A stretch of 58,673 nt of DNA from Thermoplasmatota archaeon (GCA_016927555.1 JAFGML010000023.1:1-58673), one strand, 5' to 3'. Shown: positions 26,001 through 44,863, numbered from the stretch's first letter. Numbers and translations are program-made. Notes: generated by a model from the letters alone, not told the origin.

Positions 26001-28298
26001 TTAGACGTCTGTGTTCAGTGTTGGTCTGCCTTGATCGTGGAATCCATTGTTGGGCTCATAGGGGTTGAATGCAGGATCCCCATACAAGGTGCGGACGTAG
26101 AAGGTTGGTGGTTCTGTGTCAACCTGTTTTTCACCCCGGAGTGCTTCCCCGAGGCTCCAGTCATCAACAATTAAATGATTCTCTAGTGTTGTTAACCCTG
26201 CCTCTTGTCCTGTCTCCCGTGTAGCGCCGATGAACCCGTTGCACCCTGCGTGCAGCATGGTCAGACCGATGTTCATCTGCGGGGGCAGTCCATCGGTGCG
26301 TCCCATGAGGCAGGCAGATGACAGGAAGAGGCTTGGTTTTTCGAACACCCAGGTTTTTGCATGGGCGACATCCACTGCCTTGGAGTACATGTCAAACCCG
26401 TACAGTGATGCTGGGAACCAGAACCAGTCGCCATGGCCTAGGTACTCGATGTAGTTGGCACCTGTGTAGACGTCCAGGAGACCTGTGATCTGCCGACCGT
26501 TCCGGAGCACACCGTACACGTGTGAGCTAAATCCATAGGCTCTGATTTCCCTGGCGTAGGGTATCTGATGGAAGATGCCACCGGTCTCCCCGAATCCTTC
26601 ACCGAAGACGAAGTTGAACCGCGTGTGCCAGTCCTCTGGTTCACCGCACAGGGTGTTGTAGAAGAACGTACGGGCAATAAGGACTGAGGCATCTGAAGCA
26701 TCCCAGCTGATGAGTCGTCCCACGGAGAGACTCTGGTTGAGTGAGTACGGGTTATCTGAGGGTAACCCTCGGTCAGGGTACCCCTGTTGTGAAGGACCGT
26801 AGTAGTACATCGGAATCATCGTGGTGTCAGCAAGGAGAGCAAGCCAGGCAGGACCCTGGAGGTACCCGTTGAGGAGGTCATGGGTGTTGAGCTTATCGAG
26901 GGTTGCATTCACCTGGCGTACAATCGCATCGACTTTTTCGTTTGTGAACTGATGAAGCGATTCAGTGTACCAGGGACCTGCGGCGGTTCCTTCAGCAGCT
27001 GTTTCATAGGAGTCGTCAGTCAGCTCCCATGACGAGTTTGCAATGAGCAGACCACCATGTGCTGCTGTCAGATACGGTGCGAGGACAGACAAGTTGGGGA
27101 TGAGGGGAAGATGGGGGCTTGTGAGTCTGCTTATCGTTGCTGTGAACTGGAGATCCTCATTGAGATAGGAGAACCCGCGTTGGAGAAAGTATCCTCCTTT
27201 TATCCCGTGATAGAGGGTGACGTTGAGTGTGTAGTTTCCTGACAGGTTACAGGTGAGTGTCTCTACATAGGTCTTTCCAAAGTCATAGCCCATGCTGTTT
27301 GCATACGCAACGACGTGACCTTTTGGGTCATACAGGGTGAGAAAGAGGAGAGGATGGATTGGTGAGAATTTTTCCAAAACTGGGTTTTTTTGCACGATTT
27401 CTGCATCAATCTGCACTCTATTGGTATCCTCAGGGACGTAGACGACGTACTGTTGCGTGCTGGTTCCATAGATGTCAATTTCTCTGCTGAGGAGAGTGAG
27501 TTTTAGATTTGAAAAATGGTCTGTGTATTCTGTGTTGGTTGTTGAGGTAACGGATGGTGGTTGCACATCAGAGGGGTTCGTCATTGTGATATAGTTGAGA
27601 GCACCGAAGTGTTGTTTGATGACGGCAAGGATAGTATCTGTGATGGTGTCTTCATCGGGAAGAGACATACAGGTGATATTCGGAAGGTTGACAGGGATGT
27701 TTCCGATGAGATAGGCGGAAGTGACTTGGAGTTGGGTACATACTGTCTGAATCTCTGGTTCGTTGTTGTCATAGATGAGAAGTGGGATGTTGAGGTAGCT
27801 GGCAAGGGGTGTGGCAAGCATGCTGAGGTGGTATGCATTAGGGGTGGTGTACGGGAGGATGAGGGCGGCGGGTGCTGTGGTATACAGCTGGAGAGCAAGT
27901 GTGAGGGCAACGGATGCTGGTGAGCCGGTGAGTTCAGTGACAGGATAGGAGGTGTTCAGCTGCTGACCCAGGACAAGAAGGGACGGAGGTGATGAGGGGA
28001 GGTACGTCTCAAGGAATCTGTTCTGTGCATCGGTGAGATTGTTTTCTTTGGAGATGAGGAGCGGGAGTAGTCCGGTGGTGTTTGTTGTCCTGTCGTACCA
28101 ACAGGCTGCGTTGGTCCCTAGGAGTCCGAAGAAAGGATCGCTGTCTGTGACAATGACGGCGTCTGCGGGTTGATTCCTCAGTGCTGACGTATGGTGTGTG
28201 GTGACCGCAGTACTGCTAGAAAGGTGTGTGCCACTTGTGAGATGTACCGAGGCAAGACAGAGGAGAAGTATGAGGAATAGGATCCTGATGTGTTTCAT
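26001..28298 (-). CDS. Secreted C25 (gingipain-like) peptidase with CW_binding_2-like N-terminus
   Basis: A 765-residue protein with a signal peptide (1-23). The region of about 45-215 alternates ILV-rich strands in the manner of cell-wall-binding repeat 2 domains (ASVALTLALQLY...AALILPYTTPNAYHLSMLATPLASYLNIPLLIY...SAYLIGNIP). A beta domain follows (pre-peptidase-like, DRVQI...NYTLNVTLYHG). The C-terminal part holds the gingipain dyad: His622 in YLGHGDW and Cys663 in LFLSSACLMG, and ends with LYGDPAFNPYEP, the common C25 end motif. Activity is therefore expected, with unknown specificity. No anchor is seen. It is one of three C25-like proteins in the window. Confidence 0.82.
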   Translation of the reverse strand: MKHIRILFLILLLCLASVHLTSGTHLSSSTAVTTHHTSALRNQPADAVIVTDSDPFFGLLGTNAACWYDRTTNTTGLLPLLISKENNLTDAQNRFLETYLPSSPPSLLVLGQQLNTSYPVTELTGSPASVALTLALQLYTTAPAALILPYTTPNAYHLSMLATPLASYLNIPLLIYDNNEPEIQTVCTQLQVTSAYLIGNIPVNLPNITCMSLPDEDTITDTILAVIKQHFGALNYITMTNPSDVQPPSVTSTTNTEYTDHFSNLKLTLLSREIDIYGTSTQQYVVYVPEDTNRVQIDAEIVQKNPVLEKFSPIHPLLFLTLYDPKGHVVAYANSMGYDFGKTYVETLTCNLSGNYTLNVTLYHGIKGGYFLQRGFSYLNEDLQFTATISRLTSPHLPLIPNLSVLAPYLTAAHGGLLIANSSWELTDDSYETAAEGTAAGPWYTESLHQFTNEKVDAIVRQVNATLDKLNTHDLLNGYLQGPAWLALLADTTMIPMYYYGPSQQGYPDRGLPSDNPYSLNQSLSVGRLISWDASDASVLIARTFFYNTLCGEPEDWHTRFNFVFGEGFGETGGIFHQIPYAREIRAYGFSSHVYGVLRNGRQITGLLDVYTGANYIEYLGHGDWFWFPASLYGFDMYSKAVDVAHAKTWVFEKPSLFLSSACLMGRTDGLPPQMNIGLTMLHAGCNGFIGATRETGQEAGLTTLENHLIVDDWSLGEALRGEKQVDTEPPTFYVRTLYGDPAFNPYEPNNGFHDQGRPTLNTDV

Positions 28299-29063: not shown

Positions 29064-29107
29064 ACTATTTAAATGATAATTGTATACGTGTAACACGCTA
29101 ACGTATA
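29064..29107 (+). promoter_or_regulatory. TATA box and 7-bp inverted repeat before the candidate RiPP precursor
   Basis: CTATTTAAATG at 29065-29075 is a TATA candidate. It is followed at 29083-29107 by TATACGT, an 11-base spacer and ACGTATA, a perfect 7-bp inverted repeat spanning the expected transcription start. It may be an operator or a leader hairpin. Confidence 0.45.
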
Positions 29108-29134
29108 GCAATTAAGTTAGGCAAGGAGGTATAC

Positions 29135-29374
29135 ATGAAGGGAAAATCAAAACATCTCCAAACCAAGCTCCACGACCTGGGGCACACGCTAGGACTCAAC
29201 GACACAGATATTGCCAATGCGAAACAAACAGCATGCAGTATGCTGAGTGTGGCACTCGCAGCGACTCTCGTCATCATCATTGGAAAATTCGCAACCACAC
29301 AACTCGACGCTGTTGGTCTCTACTACACAGGAGTCAGCATAAAGGATTTCGGTCTTCTCAGTAGATTCTTCTGA
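29135..29374 (+). CDS. 79-residue peptide, candidate precursor of a radical SAM-modified peptide
   Basis: A small protein with a strong AAGGAGGT ribosome site. The N-terminal part is polar and helical (MKGKSKHLQTKLHDLGHTLG...DIANAKQT), as in leader peptides. A hydrophobic helix follows (ACSMLSVALAATLVIIIGKF, 34-53), then a C-terminal TTQLDAVGLYYTGVSIKDFG and LLSRFF. There is only one Cys (34), so a multi-thioether sactipeptide is unlikely; aromatic residues (YY, FF) in the tail would be the more likely targets. It is followed after a perfect 13-bp hairpin by a radical SAM/SPASM gene in the same direction, the arrangement seen for many peptide-modifying systems. The role as substrate is inference; it could instead be a small membrane subunit. 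Confidence 0.6.
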   Translation: MKGKSKHLQTKLHDLGHTLGLNDTDIANAKQTACSMLSVALAATLVIIIGKFATTQLDAVGLYYTGVSIKDFGLLSRFF

Positions 29375-29385
29375 GAAAAAACAAG

Positions 29386-29432
29386 AGAAACACTGCTAAA
29401 GACCCCCAACCTCCTCTTATAGCAGTGTTTCT
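29386..29432 (+). terminator. Perfect 13-bp inverted repeat between peptide and radical SAM genes
   Basis: AGAAACACTGCTA (29386-29398) and TAGCAGTGTTTCT (29420-29432) are perfect complements around a 21-base loop. Placed between the small peptide gene and the maturase gene, it could act as partial terminator or mRNA stabiliser, giving more peptide than enzyme. Confidence 0.65.
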
Positions 29433-29456
29433 TCCAATTTACATAAGAGATTTCTC

Positions 29457-30512
29457 ATGAGAAAAAAATACATCCCGCTGAGTGTCGCCTGGGAACTCAC
29501 CCTGTCCTGCAACATGCGCTGCATGCACTGCGGTTCATCAGCAGGAACGACCCGGGACAAAGAATTAACAACTACTGAAGCTCTCAACCTGTGCAGCCAG
29601 CTTGCAGATCTCCATGCAAAGTACATCAACCTCACTGGTGGTGAAGCAATCCTGCGAAAAGGCTGGTACGACATCAGCAAAGCAATCAAAGACCTCGGCA
29701 TGGAAGTCAGCGTTCTTTCAAACGGTCTCGCACTCACCGACACTATGATTCAACAACTCCGGAACGCTGGTGTCTATGCCATCGCGTTGAGTTTAGACGG
29801 TGGAACACCACACACACATGACAGCATACGAGGAGTCCCCGGGTCGTTTCACACGTGCCTTGATCGGTTGAAGCAACTACGAGAAGAAAACCTCCCAGTC
29901 ACCGTCATCACCACGGTTCATAAACGCAATTTCCATGAGCTACCCCTCATCCGTGATCTCATCCTGGGGAAGACAAAAGCCTGGCAGATACAAATCGCAG
30001 TTCCTATTGGACGATTCCCTACAAACCTCATTGTAAGTAAAGAAGAATTCTATGCAGTCGCTCTCTTCATTGCAGCAACACGGAAACGCTACTCTGTTAG
30101 AGAGCTGGCTGTCATGGGTGCGCATAGCATCGGGTACCATTCACAAATCATTCGAAACACCATGGTCTCGCCCGTCTGGAAGGGATGTCAAGCAGGCATC
30201 AGTGTGCTAGGGATACAGAGCAACGGCAACATCAAAGGATGCCTGTCGCTTCCAGACTCCTTCATAGAAGGAAACATTCGCCAGAAACCACTGGCTGACA
30301 TTTGGAATGATCAGAAAGCGTTCTCCTACACAAGGGACTGTACACCATCTGATTTGAAAAACCAGTGTGCGACGTGTCGATATGGACGCTCCTGCAGAGG
30401 TGGATGTACCACGGTCTCAGCGTCACTGACCGGTGCTCCACATTGTGATCCCTACTGTCTTCGTGACATTGAAATGTACATGATCGCCAAGGAGGAACGC
30501 CTCATATCTTGA
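29457..30512 (+). CDS. Radical SAM/SPASM-domain peptide-maturase-like enzyme
   Basis: A 351-residue protein. The radical SAM iron-sulfur motif is CNMRCMHC (CX3CX2C, residues 18-25), with the SAM-binding GGE (NLTGGEAIL) and the ALSLDGG strand. The C-terminal SPASM region has cysteines for auxiliary clusters: KGC, KGCLSLP, NQCATCRYGRSCRGGCTT and HCDPYCLRDIE. This architecture is that of PqqE/anSME-type enzymes acting on peptides or proteins. It is 82 bases downstream of the 79-residue peptide, so modification of that peptide is the simplest hypothesis. A cofactor-related role (haem or PQQ-like) is an alternative. A partial second copy of its SPASM end exists at 31588-31764. Confidence 0.9.
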   Translation: MRKKYIPLSVAWELTLSCNMRCMHCGSSAGTTRDKELTTTEALNLCSQLADLHAKYINLTGGEAILRKGWYDISKAIKDLGMEVSVLSNGLALTDTMIQQLRNAGVYAIALSLDGGTPHTHDSIRGVPGSFHTCLDRLKQLREENLPVTVITTVHKRNFHELPLIRDLILGKTKAWQIQIAVPIGRFPTNLIVSKEEFYAVALFIAATRKRYSVRELAVMGAHSIGYHSQIIRNTMVSPVWKGCQAGISVLGIQSNGNIKGCLSLPDSFIEGNIRQKPLADIWNDQKAFSYTRDCTPSDLKNQCATCRYGRSCRGGCTTVSASLTGAPHCDPYCLRDIEMYMIAKEERLIS

Positions 30513-30627
30513 TAAAAAAGATGATCCTATAATAAACATTAAGAAACGTAAAAAACTATTATTTGTAAAAAATGTTAAAATAAAGTTTAAATAATAGTAC
30601 TTGGGATAATTAGAGCGGGGAAAAAAG

Positions 30628-31584
30628 ATGAGACAAGGAAAAGCATCCAGTCAGTTACAGGCTGCTTTGGTGATTTGTGTGGTACTTGGTGTCTCGTTTG
30701 TACCCATGGTAACCGCACACGATCAACAACCTATTGATGACCAGACCCAGTGTGTGGATGTGTCAATTGAAGTGTGTGGTATGCAGGAGACTGAGAAGCA
30801 CACAGTATCGCTTCGTGAAGATGATGCGCTGCGCCTGAAGGCGATGACTCAGTCGCTCAAGGAGCGGTTAGATGCAGCTGCCACTGAAGAGGAATTCGCA
30901 CAGATTTGCTCTGAAATGGTGAGAGCTCTTGAATCTTTTGGCGTGTTACCGCCAGGTCAATCAGTTGAGAGTGTCCTGCGGCTGGTGACGAGGGGCCTAC
31001 GGGCGGATCAACGTGCGGTGCTGGGAAAGAATCGGTGTATCGACACCGAGGTTGGTGATTTAAAAAATATCAATGCCCTGTGTCTCGTCGCAGGGGCCAC
31101 AGACACAACTTTAATCATACCTTATCTCGCAGGTCTTCATTATCTATCGTATTTATCCGTATTTGGAATCCTGAAGTTAATCGTCTCGGTCCTTGAAATT
31201 TTATCACCAATACTATATAAACTCATTGTGTCCCTTATTTACGCTCTTCCATTAACACTATTTGTGTTCTACGTCGAACATATTTTCACGCCAATTCAGA
31301 AATACTTACTATATAAACCATTCATCTTTGGAAATTTTATTGTATTAGGTTACCAAAATCCTATGCCTCCTAACACTTGGCCGGCTTCTGGATGGTTGGC
31401 GACAGCAGGTGCCCTTGGAATAAAGGGTTGGAATGGTTCTTTTACAGGAGGATTTGATCTTGGTAGAGGCTTCAATGTAGGGATTATTGGGTTTACAGGA
31501 ATCAAACTAGGCTGGGGTTATGAATATCTCTGGTCAGAAGAACTATTCTATTTTGGATCTGCACTCGTTGTAAAGATAGACTGA
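30628..31584 (+). CDS. Secreted/membrane protein of unknown function beside the radical SAM genes
   Basis: A 318-residue protein with an N-terminal signal sequence (AALVICVVLGVSFVPMVTA). A charged helical part (KHTVSLREDDALRLKAMTQSLKERLDAAATEEEFAQICSEMV) follows, then two or three hydrophobic segments (about 165-225, including LKLIVSVLEILSPILYKLIVSLIYALPLTLFVFYV). A Gly/aromatic-rich C-terminal beta part ends the protein (WNGSFTGGFDLGRGFNVGIIGFTGIKLGWGYEYL). No family recognised. It lies between the radical SAM gene and a decayed radical SAM C-terminus, suggesting it was once part of a second peptide/maturase cassette or an immunity/export function. It has its own TATA candidate (GTTTAAATAATAG). 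Confidence 0.65.
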   Translation: MRQGKASSQLQAALVICVVLGVSFVPMVTAHDQQPIDDQTQCVDVSIEVCGMQETEKHTVSLREDDALRLKAMTQSLKERLDAAATEEEFAQICSEMVRALESFGVLPPGQSVESVLRLVTRGLRADQRAVLGKNRCIDTEVGDLKNINALCLVAGATDTTLIIPYLAGLHYLSYLSVFGILKLIVSVLEILSPILYKLIVSLIYALPLTLFVFYVEHIFTPIQKYLLYKPFIFGNFIVLGYQNPMPPNTWPASGWLATAGALGIKGWNGSFTGGFDLGRGFNVGIIGFTGIKLGWGYEYLWSEELFYFGSALVVKID

Positions 31585-31587
31585 TAA

Positions 31588-31764
31588 TCAAGTCAAACGA
31601 TTGAGCCATACCAAGGCAATCTGGAGAACCAGTGTGCGACGTGTCGATATGGACACTCGTGTAAAGGCGGATGCACAACAGTATCTGCGTCACTGACTGG
31701 TGCTCCCCATAGCGACTCCTATTGTTTGTATGATATAGAAACCCGAATTCTCGACGAGACATAA
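31588..31764 (+). pseudogene. Remnant of a second radical SAM/SPASM gene (C-terminus only)
   Basis: Just after the previous stop, a frame without a start codon reads NLENQCATCRYGHSCKGGCT and continues TVSASLTGAPHSDSYCLYDIETRILDET to a TAA at 31762-31764. It matches NQCATCRYGRSCRGGCTTVS...TGAPHCDPYCLRDIE of the intact enzyme, with high nucleotide identity too (aaccagtgtgcgacgtgtcg shared exactly). One SPASM cysteine has become Ser (PHCDP to PHSDS). The SAM-binding part is missing, so it is a truncated duplicate. Confidence 0.88.
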
Positions 31765-31856: not shown

Positions 31857-34355
31857 ATGAAAAAATGGCTAAGTATACTCTTTGTAGGCATGTTTCTCAT
31901 CAGCGGCTTTGGTGCGACTGCGATCACCACCATGACGACGAACAACGTACACGGGACGATAACTGAAAGAATAGAACTACATCCATCATCAGTAGAAATC
32001 TCTGAGTACTCCACTGAATATGTGACTGTTCAATTGCCCGACATCCCTGAGTTGTATCTCCTGAACCCTGGGCAGCCGATGATGCCTCGGATGCTGAAAC
32101 AGTACGAACTCCCTTTTGGGGCAACTGACATCCACGTCCAGGTGACACCTCGTGGTATCCAAGAGCAGATGATCACCCAGGAGATTCGACCAGCACCCAC
32201 ACCAGTCTCGTACACTCCGCAGCAAATTCTACCAACGAGCTTTGAGAAGGACCTTCGTGTGTATGACAGCGATGCATTCTACCCTGACGCGTGGTCTCAG
32301 TATCACGTTGGATGTGGATTGAACGCCAATAACGAACACGTCACCCATCTGGTTGTGAACATGTTCCCGGTACGGTATCAGCCAACCACCGGTAGACTCC
32401 ACATCGCGCACACCTATGACCTCCAGATATCGTACACTCCGCCAGACCGCAGTCCGTTCCCCTTAGAAAGCACCTATGATCTCGTGATTATCAGTCCGTC
32501 GAAGTTCTCTGAAGAGCTGGACCGGCTTGTCACACATAAGACAGACATGGGTGTTCCCACTGTGCTGAAAACAACTGAAGATATCTATGCCGAATACACT
32601 GGTGTCGATGAACCTGAGCAGATAAAGTATTTCATCAAAGACGCCATGGAAACCTGGGGTGTACAGTATGTGCTGCTCTTCGGTGGATTAAAATCCATCG
32701 TGTTCGGTAGACCAAAGGATGATACGAATCACGGCTCAAAAGGCTGGTACGTCCCTGTGCGGTACTCAAACTTCGCATGGGATGGCGACCCCTACTTTAA
32801 CTTTACTGGAGATGAACCTGGCTTTATCAGTGACCTCTACTACGGTGATGTCTACAAGGAGGGAGGCGTGTTCGACAACTGGGATTCCAACGGCAATGGG
32901 ATTTTTGCTGAATGGGCTGGCCCGTCGTTATTCGATGACCTTGATTTATATCCTGATGTTGCTTTCGGGCGGCTCGCCTGTCGCAACACCCTTGAGGCAA
33001 AGCACGTGATTGATAAGATCATCACCTACGAGGCACAAGCTGCTGACCCGAGCTGGTTCAACAGGATTATCGCGATTTCTGGTGACGGGTTCCTCGATCA
33101 AGAAGATTGGGGCATCCAGTGGAATACCACAGGGCTGCCCACGGGGGAGTACACGATTCATGCACAGTGCTCAAACCCTGACGGCGAACTTGGTCCTGTT
33201 GATGAGATTCAGGTCACTCTTGATACCACACAGGAGACAAACATCACGTTCAACCATGATGACCATCTCAACCCTGCGATACAGGATGGCTACCCAGCGC
33301 CACCCATCGCAGAAATCGTCTCTATCTCAAACAACAACATTCTTGGCAATACTGATCGCACCTACACGCCACATGATGGGGAGGCCTACTGCAACGATTT
33401 GTACTGGTGGGCGAACATCAGCTACGTCGGTGGTGTGCTCACGATACGAGGAAAAACCTATGATCCCTCACCGTATGGGAATCTGACCAACCTCTCCGTC
33501 TGGATCACCAACGAAGCGAATGTCACCGTTTTTTCAGACACCCGTGAGAACATGGAGACCTACTACGAAGGTGAGTGGGTTGTTGGAGAAAAAAACCTCC
33601 TTGGACGTGGTGGAGCCCTCTATTATATCTCAGATGATTTTGAAAAGAATAGTGTGTTCACCTCAAACGGCAAGTGGGTTGATCAATCTGATGTCATCAG
33701 GGAGTTCAGCGAAGGCTACGGCCTTGCGTACTTCTCAGGCCATGGAAGCCCAGGCTGGTGGGGAGACCACTACCCGGGGATACCGGGGAACCGACGCTAC
33801 GGCCAGGTCGCAGGACTCGTCGTCAGCCAAGTCTCCATCTACTTCCCCTTCATCCACTTCCCAGTGCTCCCCATGCGGAAGTTAAGCAACATCGACAAAC
33901 TCCCAGTCGTCTGCGTGGGCGGATGCCACAACAGCATGTTCAGCGTCTCACTGATTCCGTCTGTCCTTGATGCCTTCCTGCCGATGCACATGTTCACGTA
34001 TGGTGCCCCCACACCAGAGTGCTGGGGATGGTACATGGTGAAACTGCCCCGGACTGGCGCAATAGCCACCATGGGTAACACCGGGTACGGTTGGGGATCA
34101 GAAGGTGATGTCTGTACCATTGGCACCGGTGACGGGTGGTTGAACACTGAGTTCTTCAGACAGTACGGCGTGGAGAATCACACCGTCCTGGGGGTGACGT
34201 ACACGCAGGCGATCACCAGCTACATCGACTACCATAAAGTCTTTGAGTACACCTACTGGCGGTATGACCATGGCTGGGATGGCATTGACCAAAAGACAGT
34301 GCAGCAGTGGCAGCTGCTTGGAGACCCCAGTCTGCAGATTGGAGGATACGCGTAA
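31857..34355 (+). CDS. Secreted C25 (gingipain-family) cysteine peptidase
   Basis: An 832-residue protein. The signal peptide covers 1-22. A C25 propeptide-like region follows (PDIPELYLLNPGQPMMPRMLKQYELPFGA, HLVVNMFPVRYQPTTGRLHI). The catalytic domain starts near YDLVIISPSKF (about 205) and GVQYVLLFGG. The active-site His629 is in YFSGHGSPGWWG and Cys690 in VVCVGGCHNSMF. An Ig-like insert of about 120 residues (TGLPTGEYTIHAQCSNPDGELG...) splits the two halves of the catalytic domain, which is unusual. It ends WQLLGDPSLQIGG, the conserved C25 end. Secreted endopeptidase for external protein. A strong T-run terminator follows. Confidence 0.9.
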   Translation: MKKWLSILFVGMFLISGFGATAITTMTTNNVHGTITERIELHPSSVEISEYSTEYVTVQLPDIPELYLLNPGQPMMPRMLKQYELPFGATDIHVQVTPRGIQEQMITQEIRPAPTPVSYTPQQILPTSFEKDLRVYDSDAFYPDAWSQYHVGCGLNANNEHVTHLVVNMFPVRYQPTTGRLHIAHTYDLQISYTPPDRSPFPLESTYDLVIISPSKFSEELDRLVTHKTDMGVPTVLKTTEDIYAEYTGVDEPEQIKYFIKDAMETWGVQYVLLFGGLKSIVFGRPKDDTNHGSKGWYVPVRYSNFAWDGDPYFNFTGDEPGFISDLYYGDVYKEGGVFDNWDSNGNGIFAEWAGPSLFDDLDLYPDVAFGRLACRNTLEAKHVIDKIITYEAQAADPSWFNRIIAISGDGFLDQEDWGIQWNTTGLPTGEYTIHAQCSNPDGELGPVDEIQVTLDTTQETNITFNHDDHLNPAIQDGYPAPPIAEIVSISNNNILGNTDRTYTPHDGEAYCNDLYWWANISYVGGVLTIRGKTYDPSPYGNLTNLSVWITNEANVTVFSDTRENMETYYEGEWVVGEKNLLGRGGALYYISDDFEKNSVFTSNGKWVDQSDVIREFSEGYGLAYFSGHGSPGWWGDHYPGIPGNRRYGQVAGLVVSQVSIYFPFIHFPVLPMRKLSNIDKLPVVCVGGCHNSMFSVSLIPSVLDAFLPMHMFTYGAPTPECWGWYMVKLPRTGAIATMGNTGYGWGSEGDVCTIGTGDGWLNTEFFRQYGVENHTVLGVTYTQAITSYIDYHKVFEYTYWRYDHGWDGIDQKTVQQWQLLGDPSLQIGGYA

Positions 34356-42688: not shown

Positions 42689-44863
42689 TTAGCAGCTGCG
42701 GATGACGCGCAGGACGAACGGCCCAAGCACAAACCCGGTGCCGCTCCACGGCTCTGCGTACTCAACAGTTACCTGTATTGAGATTTTCCCTAACCCAAAC
42801 ATGGGGTCGTCTGGTTGTAGAGTACTGGTTTCTCCCACATCAATGACAGCGAGATTGTTGCGTGCGTCGATGTTGATACGTCCGAGTAGCCCGCCTTGTA
42901 AGGAGATGCTCCAGGCAACACCGGTCACCGGGGTGTCCCCTTCATTGGAGATGGTCGCACTAATGCCTCTTCCACCGGTGACAGCATGAATGCTGAGAGA
43001 GGGTTTACTCCCTGAAGCTTGTTTAAAGGCAACAGCGGGGTCTCCAAACAGGTTTGTCTCGTAGTAGCACCAGCGGATGCAGGAGCGTTGAATCAGAAAC
43101 AGGTTGTCTTCTTTGGAGTCGTGGTTGGCTCTGCCGAGTTCCCTGATGTTTTCTCCAAAGACTGCGTCCCAGAACTGCCGATGGAAGCGTTGCGAGTCCC
43201 CATCGGTGCTATAGGACCAGAAGAACCCGTAGCGGGCGTTCCAGATGCCGGCGAACGCCCCATGGTTCGTCTTGGCGGTGAAGTGCTCTGCGATGCAGTC
43301 TCCTTGGTCAAACCCACCAGACATGCATCCCTGTGAGTACACGAAGCAGAATTGATCGGTGTTGGTCAAATCAGTGACATCACTGGTCCCCATTCTCATA
43401 TTGTATTCATAGTAGGCATGTCCGTTGTGGTTGATGAAGTGCACCCCGTTGTTGATCCGATCGATGATTTCCTGCGCAGGCCATCCAGAGCCCCCGGGGT
43501 AGGTTTCATCGTATAATGTGTCTATCATATAGGTACTCGCTGGGATGCCAACGGTGGTAAATCCATTGTCATTAGATCCGTTGATGAGTTGATTCAACAT
43601 CGCACTCCCGTAGGAGGCGATGCCATGGTCGCCGAGGTACTCACCAGCAAACGTGGCAGCACCTAGGTAGGTGTCGCCATCAGGGACTGTGAGATACGTC
43701 AGTGTCTTGTTGACGAAATACTCCACTTCTGTAAGGGTGCTGGCACAGGCGCGGCCGACGTACACGTCTGCGATGAGGTCGACGTCGCTGCCGTTCTCCC
43801 CGTCGGTGGGTTCTCCCCATTTGTTGTCTCCGTCGTAGTTGTAGGTGCCGTCGAGACATGCGTAGTACACATCCGCTGGCATGAAGGTCTCATAGGGGGT
43901 GACGTTCTCATCCATGCCGAGTACCCAGAGCATCTTCTCAGGGACGACCTCGGTGTCACCGCCCAGCAGGACGTAGGAGATCCCCCAGGTGGTGTACGCG
44001 GTGCGGAGATAGTCCCGTATGTCCTCAGGGGTACTTCCTCCAACGTCAGTGAGCGTTCGGATGATGGTCTGCGTCCCTGTCTGGTTATGCTGAGCTGCAA
44101 GTGGAGTGAATGCTGACGTAAAAGTCTCACTGGTGAGAATGAGCAGGTCATAGTCTTCAGCACGACTGTTTTTGTGCAGGAGATCGTGGTACAGCGGTGC
44201 GCCCTCTGGGTTGTCTATTTTTTGAAGCACCAGTTCCTCATCGATGGGAAGTCCACGGAACATGCTGTTGCCAAAAGGCTCCTCTTCCAGAGTAACTCTC
44301 ACGTCTAGTGAAGGGTAGTAGAAGAGCTGACCACTGAGTGGTTGGTACTGTACTGGATGCAGCATCACCACAAGGATCGTGTATCCACGGAAGGGGTGCA
44401 CTCCTACGTGGGTTGAGAGCACACCAGGGAACATATCATCAGATGAATAGATAGTAGGATCTGGCTCTGGTGGCATCTGTGCTGCGTCTGGTGTCAAGGG
44501 TAGTGATGCTCCACAAGGGACGATGGTGAATCCCGAGCCAAGCGAGACTGCCTCCCCGGTAACGGTGATGGAGGCAACCGTGGTCTTCGGTGGTAAGAGC
44601 AGGTAGGCACCTCGTGTTGGTAACAGTGGTTCACCTGCATTGCCTGACAAGGGTGAATCCTGAAGCGTGATGTGGTCATATACTTTGTTTTCAATCGTTA
44701 TGGTATGTAGATGCAGTTGGGAAAAGAAATAGGTGTGTTCAACATCATCAGAAGAAGATGGTGATATCATAGATGCCGTTGTGGAAAACGAGGCACAGAG
44801 GACGACAGCCACACTCAACAGAACAGCCGTCTGTCTGCTGACTCTTGTTATTGAGTTGTTCAT
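42689..44863 (-). CDS. Secreted C25 peptidase with C-terminal CARDB-like domain
   Basis: A 724-residue protein. Signal peptide about 1-30, C25 propeptide-like region (QDSPLSGNAGEPLLPTRGAYLLLPP; HPVQYQPLSGQLFYYP), then the catalytic part from YDLLILTSETF. Active-site His482 is in INHNGHAYYEY and Cys513 in YSQGCMSGGF, with the end motif NLFGDPAVAFK. After about residue 620 comes an extra beta domain: ATISNEGDTPVTGVAWSISL...GLGKISIQVTVEYAE...VLGPFVLRV. It is the same fold pattern as the two repeats of the 13720-14475 protein. Likely surface-displayed or secreted endopeptidase. Confidence 0.9.
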   Translation of the reverse strand: MNNSITRVSRQTAVLLSVAVVLCASFSTTASMISPSSSDDVEHTYFFSQLHLHTITIENKVYDHITLQDSPLSGNAGEPLLPTRGAYLLLPPKTTVASITVTGEAVSLGSGFTIVPCGASLPLTPDAAQMPPEPDPTIYSSDDMFPGVLSTHVGVHPFRGYTILVVMLHPVQYQPLSGQLFYYPSLDVRVTLEEEPFGNSMFRGLPIDEELVLQKIDNPEGAPLYHDLLHKNSRAEDYDLLILTSETFTSAFTPLAAQHNQTGTQTIIRTLTDVGGSTPEDIRDYLRTAYTTWGISYVLLGGDTEVVPEKMLWVLGMDENVTPYETFMPADVYYACLDGTYNYDGDNKWGEPTDGENGSDVDLIADVYVGRACASTLTEVEYFVNKTLTYLTVPDGDTYLGAATFAGEYLGDHGIASYGSAMLNQLINGSNDNGFTTVGIPASTYMIDTLYDETYPGGSGWPAQEIIDRINNGVHFINHNGHAYYEYNMRMGTSDVTDLTNTDQFCFVYSQGCMSGGFDQGDCIAEHFTAKTNHGAFAGIWNARYGFFWSYSTDGDSQRFHRQFWDAVFGENIRELGRANHDSKEDNLFLIQRSCIRWCYYETNLFGDPAVAFKQASGSKPSLSIHAVTGGRGISATISNEGDTPVTGVAWSISLQGGLLGRINIDARNNLAVIDVGETSTLQPDDPMFGLGKISIQVTVEYAEPWSGTGFVLGPFVLRVIRSC

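Follow-up and report, generated by a model that had tools for sequence, protein, structure and literature searches.

Excision of tyramine from a peptide corresponds to a mass change of -135.07 Da. The splicease PlpX removes tyramine at Xaa-Tyr-Gly (PMC11002830, PMC10533398) and is a member of IPR026482 with Nif11-type or nitrile-hydratase-type leaders (PMC11002830). Spliceotide products have been reported as protease inhibitors (PMC11117315). In archaea, a 2025 survey of RiPP clusters lists radical SAM types including sactipeptide and ranthipeptide, does not mention spliceotides, and cites only two haloarchaeal lanthipeptides as characterized before its own work (PMC12144867). A preliminary description of the locus reported here had expected an archaeal peptide of this sort to be little described, which agrees with that survey; the main splicease survey (Scott 2022, Chem) may have listed archaeal members earlier. 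No experimental result was recovered from the literature for any enzyme of the archaeal clade.

The window is a stretch of 58,673 nucleotides (JAFGML010000023.1) that belongs to a 1.47-Mb genome bin (G000) of Thermoplasmatota. The reading preferred here, held with moderate confidence, is that it carries a two-gene archaeal cassette of RiPP type, with splicease-like chemistry on Tyr64 of the peptide core and a product that stays anchored in the membrane.

Locus organization

The peptide and enzyme genes lie on the (+) strand with an intergenic gap of 82 bp (Table 1). The preliminary description had read them as a 79-residue peptide followed in the same direction by a radical SAM/SPASM enzyme, and ORF reading, Pfam and homologues confirm this. 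Its strong ribosome site is also present, AAGGAGGT ending 5 nt ahead of the ATG, as is its hairpin between the two genes, with a folding energy of -21.9 kcal/mol (z -6.3; 0/200 shuffles equally good). The span 29065-31764, given there as the cassette, was too wide: the peptide-hairpin-enzyme part stands, but the gene for a 318-aa protein at 30628-31584 is unrelated. It was rejected as a member because it belongs to a multi-copy family that is equally found in enzyme-less genomes. Further downstream, the relic of a second enzyme gene is 79% identical in DNA to positions 30352-30474 and its reading frame is still open; the locus therefore formerly had two enzyme genes, as relatives do.

A significant hairpin between peptide and enzyme was found in four of the nine loci of the transmembrane type defined below (the window and 3/8 others), with unrelated sequences. 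For this reason, and because Rfam gave no match, it was rejected as a conserved or known RNA. The hairpin of the window probably sets the peptide yield above the enzyme yield, and the unrelated hairpins in 4/9 loci suggest that a lowering of enzyme relative to peptide evolved repeatedly.

Table 1. Features of the peptide-enzyme locus, in positions of the window
Feature	Position	Strand	Basis
Ribosome-binding site AAGGAGGT ahead of the peptide ORF	29126..29133	+	Read directly
Precursor gene for 79 aa, encoding leader, predicted transmembrane helix, Tyr core and hydrophobic tail	29135..29374	+	ORF; homologues adjoin homologous enzymes
Leader motif LGHTLGLNDTDI, residues 15-26	29177..29212	+	Alignment A2; present in far Thermoplasmatota precursors too
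Predicted transmembrane helix, residues 32-50	29228..29284	+	Kyte-Doolittle mean 2.18 over 19 residues
Core GLYYTGVSIKDF, residues 61-72	29315..29350	+	Alignment A2, core counts
Hydrophobic C-terminal tail GLLSRFF	29351..29371	+	Hydrophobicity survey of precursors
Hairpin in the peptide-enzyme gap	29385..29433	+	Folding energy
Enzyme of 351 aa with radical SAM and SPASM domains, in the splicease-like clade, lacking an RRE domain	29457..30512	+	Pfam, NCBIfam, alignments A1/A3, trees, AF2
Remnant of another enzyme copy, covering the SPASM domain's C-terminal half	31619..31741	+	DNA comparison

Precursor peptides

A Pfam search of the window peptide gave no match. In other genomes, homologues of the ORF adjoin the enzyme homologue (E 2e-13 and 2e-12, or 2.4e-21 when the family profile was used), so the 79-aa ORF is not due to chance. 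The AF2 model of the peptide, of low confidence (pLDDT 61), shows a helical leader, then a long helix (residues 23-57) into which the membrane stretch falls; the core is unstructured and the tail forms a helix. The only Cys, C34, is located where the transmembrane helix begins and the core has none, which bears out the earlier remark that this is no classic sactipeptide.

A leader of the form LGxxLGLxxxDI is common to all family precursors in alignment A2, and LGHTLGLNDTDI, its form in the window, is proposed as the recognition site of the enzyme. The core follows the pattern GxxY[G/T/A/N/M]xxS[I/V]x[D/E][F/L], in its fuller form GxxY-x-x-x-S-I-K-D-F; Tyr64 and Ser68 are invariant in the 22 rows of the alignment and the residue before the Tyr varies. 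Within the window core GLYYTGVSIKDF, the proposed site of modification is Tyr63-Tyr64-Thr65, on the strength of the alignment. Conserved leader and separate core, as expected of a precursor cassette, are seen in alignment A2 and in soluble precursors with several cores, namely three YGT[V/I]S repeats in L045 and four in L131. L046 and L048 consist of tandem leader-core units, and one genome may hold eight precursors.

The precursors fall into two clear sets. Soluble precursors, of which 44 are catalogued in the family, end at or near the core. The transmembrane type comprises nine loci (the window, L121/L033, L039, L040, L041, L042, L043, L050 and L119) and has, between leader and core, a 19-residue stretch with a Kyte-Doolittle mean of 1.96-2.67, in most cases with Lys/Arg ahead of it; a hydrophobic tail of 7-15 residues that ends in Phe, Leu or Ile follows the core (9/9). 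Gly follows the core Tyr in 49/52 soluble-type cores vs 1/9 of the transmembrane type, where the residue is Thr (3), Ala (3), Met (1), Gly (1) or Asn (1); the window has Thr65. The hydrophobic helix of the preliminary description is present; that it defines a subclade lay beyond that first view, as did the leader motif, the invariant Tyr core and the kinship to enzymes with X-Y-G substrates. Complete reading of four distant families of Thermoplasmatota showed precursors with the same leader motif, a pair of hydrophobic segments and, at the C-terminus, [D/R/K/E]YG[V/A][F/Y] (e.g. DYGVFSR, RYGVFKR, EYGVYYK).

The topology of the peptide would be N-in/C-out, judged from the Lys/Arg-rich N-terminal side of the helix, which is clearer in relatives than in the window. 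Most members carry positive charge ahead of the helix, which suggests an outward-facing core.

Enzyme

Pfam assigns Radical_SAM (6e-22) and SPASM (9e-8) domains to the enzyme. The intact CX3CX2C motif and Cys-rich SPASM end noted earlier are C18-x3-C22-x2-C25 and seven SPASM Cys (C244, C262, C304, C307, C313, C317 and C334), all invariant in 46 relatives. The AF2 model (mean pLDDT 90) starts at the barrel, hence no RRE domain lies in front. Its nearest solved folds are the peptide-modifying SPASM enzymes SkfB, PqqE, SuiB and CteB, with anSME among the matches, and a sequence search of the PDB returned only SkfB, PqqE, BlsE and SuiB, no solved member of the clade.

The best NCBIfam match is TIGR03913 (GDL-peptide maturase) with 239 bits, short of the cut-off of 592, followed by TIGR04103 (nif11-class maturase 3) with 232 bits, short of 725, and the heme b synthase AhbD with 186 bits. 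The PQQ (PqqE) and mycofactocin (MftC) families score 111 and 130 bits, below their cut-offs of 381 and 265. In InterPro, TIGR04103 corresponds to IPR026482. A Nostoc plasmid enzyme with the TIGR04103 annotation also gets a good score as a relative.

Six residues, W70, Q177, Q179, W241, A246 and G261, are nearly invariant among the 46 group members. Q179 occurs in 46/46 and W70 and W241 in 45/46, vs 0/15 for other SPASM enzymes (PqqE, MftC, TIGR04053, TIGR04133, AhbD-like and other archaeal ones); Q177 is likewise absent from these 15, and A246 and G261 are found there in a minority. In the tree the transmembrane-type enzymes form one clade (support 100/99), sister to the soluble-type enzymes, and keep all signature residues of the group; no position conserved in the soluble-type enzymes is replaced in them by a different conserved catalytic-type residue. 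Support is moderate only (82/61, 85/68) for the branches linking the PlpX/TIGR03913 clade with the archaeal one.

Distribution of the gene pair

Enzyme relatives in the same GTDB family are 46-57% identical, often as two tandem enzymes. When the two profiles were searched separately (enzyme E<=1e-60, peptide E<=0.01), both genes were found in 17 of the 45 family genomes and neither in the remaining 28. Some positive genomes had contributed to building the profiles; clean tests are provided by the unseen genomes G063, G065 and G066, which hold both genes, and by the 28 negatives, none of which holds the peptide. A peptide family widespread without a radical SAM neighbor, the outcome that would have spoken against the preliminary description, was thus not encountered in the family. 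Peptide and enzyme are a real cassette. Beyond the family the enzyme is seldom found: of 389 genomes of the phylum 24 have it, and 17 of these belong to the family.

A precursor lies near the enzyme in 19 of about 21 family loci, mostly within 100 bp; the two enzyme loci without one nearby are L051, at a contig edge, and L054. The idea that homologues always neighbor the enzyme accordingly holds for most loci but fails for about ten extra precursors located away from any enzyme. These are always in enzyme-bearing genomes, so the enzyme probably acts in trans too. Viral carriage of the cassette was considered and rejected, as a search of IMG/VR yielded just two remote SPASM relatives.

Comparison with known systems

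Substrates adjacent to relatives of the enzyme were read across the wider clade. The Nif11 precursor beside the Nostoc TIGR04103 enzyme ends in ALYGLPPELF, the DUF1843 peptide beside the Azospirillum TIGR03913 enzyme contains RPYGPAM, and peptides beside a TIGR03913-type enzyme of Aureibacter contain QPYGAGI, LYAAGI and MYAASI. In Agathobacter rectalis an unannotated 35-aa ORF beside the enzyme ends in VMYGTGVRM, and in Bacteroidota and Desulfobulbaceae the adjacent protein is of the chagasin family (I42), with many copies of LYYG, KYG and RYN. The sole element common to the adjacent substrates of the whole enzyme group is an X-Tyr-small residue sequence, X-Y-(G/A/N).

With PlpXY (Pleurocapsa plp cluster; TIGR04103) the locus shares enzyme similarity over the whole length, a precursor directly upstream and an X-Tyr core, and with the Nostoc TIGR04103 member it shares all six signature residues. 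Unlike PlpXY, it is archaeal, its enzyme scores below the family cut-off, its leader is related to neither Nif11 nor NHLP leaders, Thr replaces Gly after the Tyr, and the precursor has a transmembrane helix and a tail. A PlpY-like partner (a truncated RRE) was found neither in the window nor in the transmembrane-type neighborhoods read; it could be encoded elsewhere. Since family cut-off, Gly and PlpY partner all fail, the enzyme is better said to work like a splicease than to be one.

The TIGR03913 GDL-peptide maturases of Azospirillum and Aureibacter provide the best NCBIfam match and likewise have small peptides directly upstream, with a PYG or LYA-type motif. There, however, a soluble peptide of the DUF1843/GDL type bears the motif in its N-terminal part, and the window enzyme lacks the C-terminal extension seen in those enzymes. 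The enzymes of the Bacteroidota/Desulfobulbaceae I42 systems are 35-37% identical, with the substrate gene directly upstream and repeated X-Y-G or X-Y-N, but their substrate is a many-core protein with a protease-inhibitor domain and their enzyme has a TPR-like C-terminal extension. Like known archaeal RiPPs (haloarchaeal lanthipeptides; predicted sactipeptides and ranthipeptides), the locus pairs a ribosomal peptide with a dedicated enzyme (PMC12144867); unlike them, its core permits no Cys-based crosslink, the thioether of sactipeptides and ranthipeptides included, and its enzyme is of another clade.

Proposed chemistry and alternatives

The preliminary description supposed that the enzyme acts on this peptide. 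Adjacency, co-occurrence (both genes in 17 genomes, neither in 28) and the conserved leader and Tyr core support this, and the relation is probable. The X-Tyr-small substrates and the signature residues kept in the transmembrane clade point to Tyr64 as the site and favor tyramine excision. A different reaction on the Tyr within the same cassette, such as a C-C or C-O Tyr crosslink, beta-hydroxylation, desaturation or epimerization in the transmembrane clade, is possible, though we think it rather unlikely. SPASM enzymes are chemically very diverse, the Gly after the Tyr is lost in 8/9 transmembrane-type cores, and the crosslinking SuiB and PqqE are among the fold neighbors; against this, all signature residues are retained, and YA instead of YG also occurs in TIGR03913-type peptides. 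A three-residue cyclophane from the invariant Tyr, with triceptide spacing, would need a beta-carbon two residues on, where Tyr64-Thr-Gly66, and YGG and YAG in relatives, have Gly; Tyr63-Tyr-Thr65 fits, but Tyr63 is not conserved.

Ser68 is as invariant as the Tyr in the 22-row alignment, and anaerobic sulfatase maturases are also SPASM enzymes, one of which (anSME) is among the fold matches. Modification of this Ser instead of the Tyr, for example to formylglycine, is nevertheless improbable: the far Thermoplasmatota cores and the bacterial substrates keep X-Y-small but not the Ser, and there is no C/S-x-P/A-x-R sulfatase motif. Still less credible is a cofactor pathway of PQQ or mycofactocin type with the peptide only as scaffold. 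It would accord with PqqE as fold neighbor and with the fact that loci of the transmembrane clade have just one precursor each, but dehydrogenase, chaperone and protease genes are lacking from the conserved neighborhood, and relatives have multiple divergent precursors and multi-core repeats, eight precursors in one genome being unlike a cofactor precursor. Signature and tree moreover set the enzyme apart from PqqE, MftC and AhbD-like enzymes, which speaks against the cofactor outcome that would have refuted the preliminary description. The modification is deduced, and the AF2 model of the peptide is of low confidence, as would suit a small membrane protein of other function that merely lies beside the enzyme; this explanation is very hard to uphold, since adjacency, order and genome-level co-occurrence persist among enzymes of about 50% identity whose neighborhoods otherwise differ.

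Under the preferred splicease-like reading, the peptide would be made in excess, from a perfect ribosome site and with a hairpin before the enzyme gene, and the enzyme would bind the helical leader LGxxLGLxxxDI. Radical chemistry on Tyr64 would occur before or during insertion of the peptide into the membrane. The product would remain anchored, its reactive core outside between the transmembrane helix and the amphipathic aromatic tail. No conserved transporter, peptidase or other gene was found beside the cassette in the transmembrane-type neighborhoods; the anchored modified peptide itself is therefore probably the product.

A ketoamide acting as a protease-directed warhead is a speculative role, prompted by the inhibitory spliceotides (PMC11117315), the I42 cysteine-protease-inhibitor domain in bacterial cousins and about 29 C25 peptidases in the genome. 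A surface-held ketoamide might check the secreted peptidases of the cell itself, a reasonable but speculative idea. In its specific form, a membrane-displayed alpha-keto-beta-amino acid peptide arising from Tyr splicing without Gly, whose electrophilic outward core could trap or regulate the cysteine peptidases (C25, C1) that these protein-degrading archaea secrete in abundance, the proposal is tentative and on balance unlikely. C25 peptidase was rejected as a conserved partner: it occurs close to the cassette in the window (31857-34355) and in L043/L050 and is absent near L040, L041, L042, L119 and L121. Given this unconserved adjacency and the number of C25 peptidases in the same genome, the C25 neighbor is not significant and lends no support to an inhibitor role.

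If the preferred reading is correct, backbone editing by radical SAM enzymes would operate in sediment archaea that are uncultured and would act on a substrate anchored in the membrane, its motif relaxed (no Gly after the Tyr), and the rewriting of a Tyr in a small anchored peptide would be a little-described archaeal protein modification. Y-T or Y-A sites, if spliced, would broaden the applicability of the reaction for placing ketoamides in proteins. The about 55 catalogued precursors cover soluble single-core, soluble multi-core, and one- and two-helix transmembrane architectures, a set that allows direct tests of leader recognition and substrate scope.

Candidate substrates and gene context of related loci

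The proteins encoded beside related SPASM enzymes in the bacterial loci L034, L035 and L036 carry many XYG/XYN repeats, preceded in L034 and L036 by a chagasin-type I42 protease-inhibitor domain; the likeness of the L035 protein to these two was judged by eye. All three are candidate multiply spliced protease inhibitors. The short open reading frame of L139 ends C-terminally in VMYGTGVRM, and a related SPASM enzyme lies downstream.

Larger archaeal clusters (L044, L047-L049, L052, L117, L118 and L120) contain several XYG peptides and two tandem SPASM enzymes. They also encode an AMP-ligase-like protein and a TPR-bearing protein that resembles class I methyltransferases, and some of them include a deoxyhypusine-synthase-like gene as well. 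In the distant Thermoplasmatota families (L149-L153), two-helix precursors are arrayed in tandem; the stretch linking their helices holds SYPFA or GYPYA, and XYG stands at the C-terminal end. These arrays adjoin a methyltransferase-like gene and a single SPASM enzyme. In two transmembrane-type loci, L041 and L042, an AbrB/MazE-type protein, with an ACT-domain match in L042, is a possible regulator.

Downstream region and peptidases of the window

The relic of the enzyme's SPASM tail retains an open frame and is preceded by the unrelated gene of the 318-aa membrane protein, which had no match among Pfam and NCBIfam families; its own family has 7 matches within the genome. About 29 C25 peptidases are present in the 1.47-Mb genome.

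Coordinates of features in the window and in related loci
Feature	Locus	Position	Remarks
XYG/XYN-repeat protein	L034	3923-4774	bacterial; directly upstream of related SPASM enzyme
XYG/XYN-repeat protein	L035	4639-5343	as L034
XYG/XYN-repeat protein	L036	247-930	as L034
Unannotated ORF, 35 aa	L139	4824-4931 (+)	Agathobacter rectalis (gut) plasmid
AbrB/MazE-type protein	L041	5130-5552	directly upstream of transmembrane-type peptide
AbrB/MazE-type protein	L042	3684-4103	as L041
Membrane protein, 318 aa	window	30628-31584	lineage-specific multi-copy family
SPASM-tail relic, second copy	window	31619-31741	79% DNA identity
C25 (gingipain-type) peptidase match	window	26001-28298	
C25 (gingipain-type) peptidase match	window	31857-34355	
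C25 (gingipain-type) peptidase match	window	43031-44143
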